Below are positions 15,211 to 33,573 of a DNA stretch of 64,000 bases, one piece after another. Source of the DNA: Synergistaceae bacterium (GTDB lineage Bacteria > Synergistota > Synergistia > Synergistales > Aminobacteriaceae); contig JAISLU010000071.1 of assembly GCA_031277095.1 (NCBI GenBank), positions 47,843-111,842 on the forward strand, written 5' to 3'. Below the pieces are notes generated by a model. That model was not told the origin of the DNA and did no database searches. It worked only from the letters and a program-made list of their open reading frames with translations. The first letter of the stretch is position 1. Each line of letters begins with the position of its first letter. Both the position numbers and the translations under genes were made by a program.

Positions 15211-15813
15211 ATGATTCGCTCTCTTTGCGGCGAAGTGCTTTCCGTGACGGAAACCTCCGCGGTTCTGGACGTGGGAGGCTTGGGGTTCGACGTTCTGTGT
15301 TCCCGGGGGGCCCTCGCCCTTTGCCTTCCCGGGGAACGGGCGCGTCTCACGGCTTATTTGCAGATCTCGGAGGCGGGGGTCGCCCTGTTCGGGTTCGCGA
15401 ACGAGACGGAGCGGGAAATTTTTCTGAAGATCACCGCAATCAAGGGGATCGGGGGCCGCACGGGAATGACGATCTTGAGCGTGCTGTCCGCCGACGAAAT
15501 CGTCCGCGCCGTCTCTTTGTCCGACGTCAACGCCTTTGTGCGCGTCCCGGGCGTGGGGCGCAAAACGGCGGAGCGGATTTGTTTCGAGCTGAAAAACAGC
15601 CTTCCCAAGGAATTCGCCTCTATGGCCGGCGCTCCTTCTCCCCCGAGCCGGGTGGCGGACACGGTGGGGGACGCGCTGCGGTCTTTGGGGTTCGGGCAGG
15701 GGGACGTGGTGGGCGCCCTGAGCGTGGTGCGCGCGGCTCTGGGCGGGGACTTCGACAAGCTGAACGAGGAAAGCCTCTTGAAGGCGGCGTTGAAAGAGTT
15801 GCAGCGCAAATGA
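15211..15813 (+). CDS. ruvA: Holliday junction branch migration protein RuvA
   Basis: MIRSLCGEVLSVTETSAVLDVGGLGFDV...ITAIKGIGGRTGMTILS...VPGVGRKTAERICFELK. Confidence 0.93.
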   Translation: MIRSLCGEVLSVTETSAVLDVGGLGFDVLCSRGALALCLPGERARLTAYLQISEAGVALFGFANETEREIFLKITAIKGIGGRTGMTILSVLSADEIVRAVSLSDVNAFVRVPGVGRKTAERICFELKNSLPKEFASMAGAPSPPSRVADTVGDALRSLGFGQGDVVGALSVVRAALGGDFDKLNEESLLKAALKELQRK

Positions 15814-15817
15814 CGGA

Positions 15818-15926
15818 TATAGTGAATGATAAAAAGCCTTGGGTAAAAAGTTAGAATAGCTAAAAAACAAGTCCATTGCGCTATTGAGCGCGTGTACATT
15901 TAACATTTTTAAGTTAAAGGACTATA
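15818..15926 (-). mobile_element. MITE-like dispersed repeat, copy between ruvA and ruvB
   Basis: Reverse complement shares ACGCGCTCAATAGCGCAATGGACTTGTTTTTTAGCTATTCTAACTTT...AGGCTTTTTATC-ATTCACTATA with the 23608 copy; ends TATAGTG...GACTATA. Confidence 0.7.
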
Positions 15927-15958: not shown

Positions 15959-17020
15959 ATGCCGGAACATAAAAAATCAGATAACGAACCGAATCAGGAA
16001 GACCGCGTTTTTTCGCCCCCCCGGGACCCTGAGGACTTGTCCCTTCGCCCCGCCACCCTGGGGGAATTCATCGGGCAGGAAAAGGTGAGGGAGAAGCTCC
16101 AAATTTACATGCAGGCGGCGAAGGGCCGCAAGGAGCCCCTGGACCACGCTCTTTTCTACGGGCCGCCCGGCCTGGGCAAGACGACCCTGGCGGGCATTAT
16201 CGCCCGCGAGATGGGTGGCCAGCTCCGCACGACCACGGGGCCGGCGTTGGAGCGCGCCGGAGACCTGGCCGCCATCGTTTCCAACGTGGAAAACAACGAC
16301 GTTCTGTTCATCGACGAGATCCACCGCCTTCCCGCCCAGGTAGAGGAAATTCTCTATCCCGCAATGGAGGATTTTTCCCTGCACATTGTGGTGGGCAAAG
16401 GCCCGTTGGCCAAGACCATATGCCTTTCTCTGCCGCGCTTTACCCTTTGCGGGGCGACGACCCGCCTGGGGCTTTTGACGTCGCCCCTGCGGGCCCGCTT
16501 CGGCATTGTGGAGCAGCTCTCTCTTTACACGGACGAGGAGTTGACCCTCATTGTCCAGCGAGGCAGCCGGGCCTTCGGCGTGGAAATTCTGGAGGAGGCC
16601 GCGGTGGAAATCGCGAGGCGGTCGCGGGGGACGCCCCGGGTGGCTTTGCGTTTGCTGCGGCGGGTGCGGGACGTGGCGGCGGTGAAGGGAACGGGAGTCA
16701 TCACGGCCGAGATGGCGGACCGGGCACTGGACATGCTGGAAATAGACCTTCAAGGGCTGGATGAAAGCGACCGCCGTATTTTGAGCAAAATCATCGACTT
16801 TTTCGAGGGAGGCCCCGTGGGGCTGTCCACCATCGCCGCGGCGTTGAACGAGGACCCTCAGACCATCGAGGACATTTACGAACCCTACCTCATTCAAAAG
16901 GGTTTTTTGGAACGAACCCCCCGGGGCCGCAAAGTCACCGCGGGAGCCTATGGGTATCTGGGAAGAAAAATCCCCCCCGAGCCCGGAGAAACGCTGCCCC
17001 TGCCCTTGGAGGAAAAATAG
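15959..17020 (+). CDS. ruvB: Holliday junction branch migration ATPase RuvB
   Basis: [19 protein letters not shown]...[24 protein letters not shown]...[23 protein letters not shown]. Confidence 0.97.
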
Positions 17021-19391: not shown

Positions 19392-19553
19392 ACTCCCTTC
19401 TGTCTTTCGTAAATTATTTTATCTCAAGAGCGGCAGGCGCGGCGCAAAAGGCTGGGAAATTTTTCCTTATTCACTATATGAGCCGCTCATCTGTTATAAT
19501 TTTTTGAAAGTGGACACTCTTGGCGGACGCGGGAAACGGAGAGAAGGAGACAA

Positions 19554-23607: not shown

Positions 23608-23709
23608 TATAGTCGTTTTAAAAAACGTTAAAATTAGACGCGCTAAATAGAGCAATTGACTTGTTTTTTAGATATTCTAACTTTAGGCTTTTTATCTTAA
23701 TTCACTATA
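23608..23709 (+). mobile_element. MITE-like dispersed repeat, fullest copy
   Basis: TATAGTCGTTTTAAAAAACGTTAAAATTAGACGCGCTAAATAGAGCAATTGACTTGTTTTTTAGATATTCTAACTTTAGGCTTTTTATCTTAATTCACTATA; TATAGTS inverted termini; similar to copies at 15818-15926 (minus) and 33509-33560. Confidence 0.75.
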
Positions 23710-33307: not shown

Positions 33308-33513
33308 TACAAAAACCCCTCCCCTTTGTGTAAAACCACGAAAGCTATCTTTCTGCCGTCCGGTGAACTGAGTCCAAGCAAGATCAGAACGACCAGAGCA
33401 GGCAAGATCGACCCGATCAGCGCGTAGAAAAAATATTGGCGTATGAGGCTGAAAATCTCTCTTAATATAGACAGTTTTCCCTGCCGCGAAAGTTCCCGAA
33501 TAAATTCACGGTC
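33307..33513 (-). pseudogene. Decapitated membrane-protein ORF whose stop overlaps the next start (TAATG)
   Basis: Open frame REFIRELSRQGKLSILREIFSLIRQYFFYALIGSILPALVVLILLGLSSPDGRKIAFVVLHKGEGFL*, no conventional start; upstream sequence is dispersed repeat. Confidence 0.55.
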
Positions 33514-33560
33514 TGTTTTTTAGCTATTCTAACTTTAGGCTTTTTATCTTAATTCACTAT
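33509..33560 (+). mobile_element. Partial copy of the MITE-like dispersed repeat
   Basis: ggtctgttttttagctattctaactttaggctttttatcttaattcactat nearly identical to 23655-23708. Confidence 0.75.
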
Positions 33561-33573
33561 GCATGGCCGCAAG

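Follow-up and report, generated by a model that had tools for sequence, protein, structure and literature searches.

The closest described system in anatomy to the repeat analysed here is RUP of Streptococcus pneumoniae, an A+T-rich, non-coding element of 107 bp that targets TA, is present in about 108–110 copies, and has TIRs resembling those of IS630-Spn1 (PMC2229807, PMC3049150). The BOX elements, also of streptococci, are modular: the internal boxB can be missing or repeated several times, S. suis has two types of element, with boxA/C and boxE/F ends, around the same boxB modules, and BOX modules can alter the expression of downstream genes (PMC3049150). The Correia elements (NEMIS) of Neisseria have TA at their termini, are often found upstream of genes, and may contain promoters as well as an IHF site (PMC2229807, PMC10969869).

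The 64-kb stretch of DNA analysed here (the window) is part of contig 39 of a Synergistaceae assembly of 2.72 Mb in 113 contigs (G000). It contains copies of a repeat, type A, that is close to RUP in its length, its TA target, and its IS630-like ends. With Correia elements, which have a TATAGTG-like end, type A shares the TA at the termini, a likeness by description and not by sequence; unlike them, the one copy scanned, in the ruvA-ruvB spacer, has no sigma-70-like promoter or terminator. Type A is new as a member and ordinary in kind. Its unusual feature is a near-invariant core of 29 bp (TTTTAGCTATTCTAACTTTAGGCYTTTTA), which lies near one end and which, in contrast with RUP, is common to elements with other ends.

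A dispersed repeat with IS630-like ends

Two copies in the window run from TATAGTC to (T)CACTATA, and both lie at the coordinates and on the strands given by the earlier note, which had also reported these ends. One, of 102 bp, is at 23608–23709 on the forward strand, upstream of a uridine kinase/PRK-domain gene whose start codon is at about 23799. Its core, TTTTAG[C>A]TATTCTAACTTTAGGC, is at 23666–23688 (+; G000:C39:71508-71530) and has one mismatch; it is followed at 23689–23709 (+) by the right end TTTTTATCTTAATTCACTATA, with 0 mismatches to the end pattern. The other, of 109 bp, is at 15818–15926 on the reverse strand, inserted in the spacer between ruvA (15211–15813, +) and ruvB (15959–17020, +), and has a small insertion in its core (TTTTTACCC). 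A third, partial copy had also been announced, and is found as a left-truncated right module at about 33512–33561 (+), adjoining the 3′ end of polA; its core, TTTTAGCTATTCTAACTTTAGGC, is intact (33518–33540, +; G000:C39:81360-81382; 0 mismatches) and its right end, at 33541–33561, has one mismatch. The expected number of such right ends is 0.00, from 100 shuffles. Two elements of the earlier description have to be dropped. The weaker match at 19467–19479 is a 13-base sequence, TTATTCACTATAT, with neither core nor left end, and is not a copy, and the internal GCGCT...AGCGC hairpin is not conserved, being perfect in 4 of the 39 testable copies and interrupted by a G.A mismatch in 32 of the 39. 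The repeat does lack an internal ORF, as had been noted, and none of the cores falls within a called gene, genes representing 86% of the window according to a simple gene caller.

Genome-wide, G000 contains dozens of copies, with 63 matches to the right end (≤3 mismatches), 59 to the left end, and 56 to the core, and the reversed-pattern control gives 0 in each case. Among the 46 copies having both ends, 32 measure 105–106 bp (the modal lengths being 105 and 106), and the median divergence from the consensus of 106 bp, TATAGTCGTTTAACTTAAAAAATGTTAAATTTACACGCGCTAAATAGAGCAATTGACTTGTTTTTTAGCTATTCTAACTTTAGGCTTTTTATCTTAATTCACTATA, is 3.8%. Type A is then a short (<200 bp), non-coding MITE with inverted termini TATAGTC...CACTATA. 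The core is carried by 10 of 83 Synergistaceae genomes, in 6 of 20 genera (≤2 mismatches; control hits 0), and the named database records with the same core are all Synergistaceae MAGs. No match was found to the core in the viral contigs searched, nor to the 23608 copy in the plasmids and phages searched.

Several lines of evidence point to mobility. The outer TA is identical on both sides in 31 of the 46 two-ended copies, with no longer duplication, so the target-site duplication that the earlier note proposed to look for is there, and apart from TA the flanks of the copies are unrelated. At locus L060 the insertion interrupts a perfect 12-bp tandem repeat (ATGAACAACAG N), and keeping one TA restores the repeat. 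The ruvA-ruvB spacer measures 145 bp in G000 and is shorter in its two congeners (55 bp in G001, 49 bp in G002), both of which lack the element, as do the other relatives with a readable ruvA-ruvB spacer. In G004 this spacer has 133 bp of unrelated GC-rich sequence. The element is also absent from G001 and/or G002 at L058, L013, L060, and L069, which makes five empty orthologous sites, in intergenic DNA that has diverged too far to place the TA junction of the relatives to the base. Hence, the picture is not one of few copies with no empty sites in relatives. A search with the flanks for empty sites among the loci already collected gave hardly anything but self-matches, arrays, and further copies of the repeat.

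One type A copy contains a nested insertion of 89 bp, and the 8-bp repeat that flanks it (AAAAAGCC) is type A sequence. The inserted DNA is a second small element, GGTCGTGGG...GACACTACC (L235:2799-2887, G000:C73), to which a partial copy at L068:1390-1474, beside another type A remnant, is related with 85% identity. A GC-rich palindromic repeat, CAGGGGACAAGTCCCCTG...TATGGGGCGGAGCCCC, resembling a REP-like family, is found in intergenic positions of several genomes (L257, the ruvA-ruvB spacer of G004; L047; L035; L242).

A family of conserved structured small RNA genes, or a riboswitch, would also be short and intergenic, with a strongly conserved internal block and termini able to pair, as is the case here. 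RUP is predicted to fold tightly, whereas the type A consensus is no more stable than its shuffles (z of −1.0 and −0.6), and neither the rarely perfect hairpin nor the absence of any Rfam match in the window is what one would expect of such an RNA. Nor are the TA duplication and the empty sites. The structured-RNA explanation, which the earlier note had held in reserve, is therefore already largely refuted, and we regard it as very improbable. The repeat is very probably mobile DNA of IS630 type, a non-autonomous MITE.

The putative IS630-type assignment rests on the ends and the target site, no partner having been observed in G000. No IS630 with matching ends was found in that genome, whose sole DDE_3 hit, lying at the edge of a contig, is of a different subgroup and shows no such ends; this differs from RUP. 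Because the MAG is fragmented, the absence of an autonomous partner is weak evidence. A candidate exists in another genus (g4), where G032 has an intact IS630-family element of 933 bp (L132) coding for a protein of 289 amino acids that matches the Pfam profiles DDE_3 (1e-25) and HTH_Tnp_IS630 (2e-23). Its ends, TATAGTCATGCAACTTAA / TATAGTCATGCAACTTAATTAAC at one side and TATAGTGCTTTAACTTAAG at the other, fit the TATAGTS-TTTAACTTAA pattern of the left ends of type A and of the related type B. For the autonomous partner that the earlier note proposed to look for, the candidate is thus an IS630 with TATAGTS ends in a different genus and not in G000. An IS630-family transposase recognising TATAGTS ends would move the MITE in trans, by cut-and-paste. 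Two more IS630-family elements, L139 (G011:C63; 1026 bp) and L140 (G030:C40; 1043 bp), have ends of a related but distinct group, TATAGCAATTTGAC / TATAGCATTTTGAC.

One core with several left halves

The most conserved part of the repeat is its internal core, which is common to elements with other ends, a fact that the earlier note had missed. Besides type A one finds type B in G002, with a left half beginning TATAGTGCTTTAACAAAAGAACG, type C, whose ends are TACCAATTTG...CAAATTGGTA, in G018, G011, and Th196, type D in Pq454, and type E in G002. The core is 90–100% identical between types from several genera, and the left halves are 40–69% identical (null about 48%), i.e., from chance level to a modest resemblance: 47% between types A and C (shuffled null 48%), 49% between types B and E (null 50%), which reside in one genome, and 69% between the most similar types. 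The left half consists of an IS-like end and, behind it, variable sequence, and the right ~42 bp holds the core, which has been joined to several left halves and to at least two classes of ends.

Elements of the IS1031 group (IS5) characteristically give a TNA duplication of 3 bp. Such a duplication is present in 20 of 22 copies of type C, which, being ~99 bp long with short TIRs, is the one type here that resembles IS5/IS1031-type MITEs. It differs from them in that a search of nine genomes with the PF01609 profile gave no IS5-family transposase having TACCAATTTG ends. The ends and the TNA duplication of type C imply a putative transposase class other than that of type A. There is thus one core in two end/target classes, TATAGTS with TA and TACCAATTTG with TNA.

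G018 also has a type C variant of 155 bp (L324/L325; G018:C6:17218-17372 and C18:14791-14945), in which 54 extra bases (TAAGCAGCGAACCGG...TTCATCA) lie between the CTTTA and the GGCC of the core. A DDE_Tnp_1 (IS4/IS5-type) element of ~848 bp in G011 (L333, G011:C114) is flanked by TA and has perfect 20-bp ends, GATAGTGTCGTCACGAGATA.

Such an organisation recalls BOX, in that a tandemly repeatable module is common to elements with different ends, here types A and B versus type C, the units of the tandem arrays being of ~35–71 bp. The likeness is in organisation only, and there are several differences. The host is another one, the core is at the right end and boxB is between two constant ends, the end types of Synergistaceae differ also in target duplication (TA versus TNA), and the type A consensus has no stable predicted structure.

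Because the core is common to two end/target classes, it is probably not the binding site of one transposase. The two classes should need different transposases, which suggests that the core is kept for a role on the side of the host; that it has such a function is a serious possibility, to which we give somewhat less than an even chance. The same distribution, which makes a one-transposase site unlikely, would also be obtained if the core were the binding site of a host DNA-bending or transcription factor aiding the transposition of any carrier, the copies in front of genes being by-products. For this there is a precedent in Neisseria, where IHF has been proposed for Correia elements (PMC2229807). 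However, an aid to transposition does not by itself predict that copies lacking the left half cluster in sense orientation and form arrays before start codons (see following), and the window has no background of weaker sites. We find this explanation rather unlikely. Finally, the core might have no function and be exchanged among types by recombination, its identity reflecting recent spread. Tandem duplication and nesting are indeed frequent in these genomes, but the core is conserved across genera when the left halves of many pairs of types are near or at chance level, and multiple independent arrays keep a core in each unit, so that functionless exchange seems unlikely.

Cores without left half in front of genes

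The core also occurs alone in front of genes, another point missed by the earlier note. Cores lacking the left half are found either as single copies or in tandem arrays, whose units measure about 35, 41–42, 60, and 52/71 bp. Counting each locus once, and only where both an SD and an ORF are present (simple gene caller), by criteria that were set after the pattern had been seen, 14 left-less loci with a start codon directly downstream are in sense orientation and 0 in antisense (binomial p = 1.2e-4). In the same test the full elements give 17 sense and 11 antisense (p = 0.34), and the difference between the two sets is significant (Fisher p = 0.0075). The arrays at L196 and L203 are sense-oriented by eye and failed the automatic test. 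Left-less sense copies directly before an SD are present in at least six genomes. The downstream genes, from translations read by eye, include rplL, tsf, lepA, enolase, threonine synthase, pyrR, and transporters; before some of these (tsf, lepA) there are copies that retain the left half.

The orientation of full elements relative to starts is inconsistent, with 31 versus 21 in G000 and 8 versus 21 in G002. Since they lack a consistent bias, most insertions look neutral, and the inconsistency speaks against the intact element having a strong promoter; a uniform promoter role of full elements was rejected for this reason.

The sense bias of left-less copies has a possible trivial cause, namely that gene-distal loss is less harmful, or easier, than gene-proximal loss, with no function of the core involved. 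The core is U-rich (55% U), and most likely it would be harmless or helpful as a U-rich leader, co-transcribed in sense just upstream of the ribosome-binding site, left-deleted copies being retained at such leaders and sometimes amplified in tandem. That the function of the core is that of a translation leader we put forward tentatively, as unlikely to be correct as it stands. With equal reserve we propose the fuller version, in which one 29-bp DNA/RNA module resides on two classes of MITEs and the freed core is co-opted and amplified as a sense 5′ leader raising the translation of housekeeping genes in operons, e.g., rplL, tsf, and enolase.

The direction could also be the reverse, the core having begun as a 5′ leader of the Synergistaceae host or of a plasmid and having been captured several times by IS ends. 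This would fit the left-less sense copies before SDs, some of which have no recognisable right TIR (e.g., L199, L226, L212). However, several others keep a remnant of the right TIR, TTCACTA, no general leader motif is present in the window, and the core is in too few genomes of the family to be an ancient host leader. Capture from a host leader is therefore improbable.

Other roles considered for the core were rejected. Its complementarity to 16S rRNA, of the T7 epsilon type (CTAACTTTAG), is an 8-base match to one partial 16S sequence and is at chance level. A general host promoter motif should leave sites of intermediate score, and the window has none. A peptide-coding core is contradicted by reading frames that, by eye, are broken by indels and stops. 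Short tandem repeats, e.g., TTTGAAGCGGTTTGTTTGA, lie directly upstream of left-less cores at L128/L213 (G004) and at L063 and L075 (G000), and slippage at tandem repeats seems to be common in these leaders.

In open-access full text, no paper combining Synergistetes, MITE, and repeat was found, and in that literature we found no description of one core spanning different target-duplication classes and occurring alone before ribosome-binding sites. The usual definition of a MITE family is by its ends, the interior being free to drift; in the present one, conservation is greatest in the interior. As the core crosses ends and target duplications that imply different transposases, the needs of the transposase can be told apart from what is tolerated or used by the host. 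The cores in 5′ leaders offer a testable case, in an uncultured lineage, of how mobile DNA may turn into regulatory DNA.
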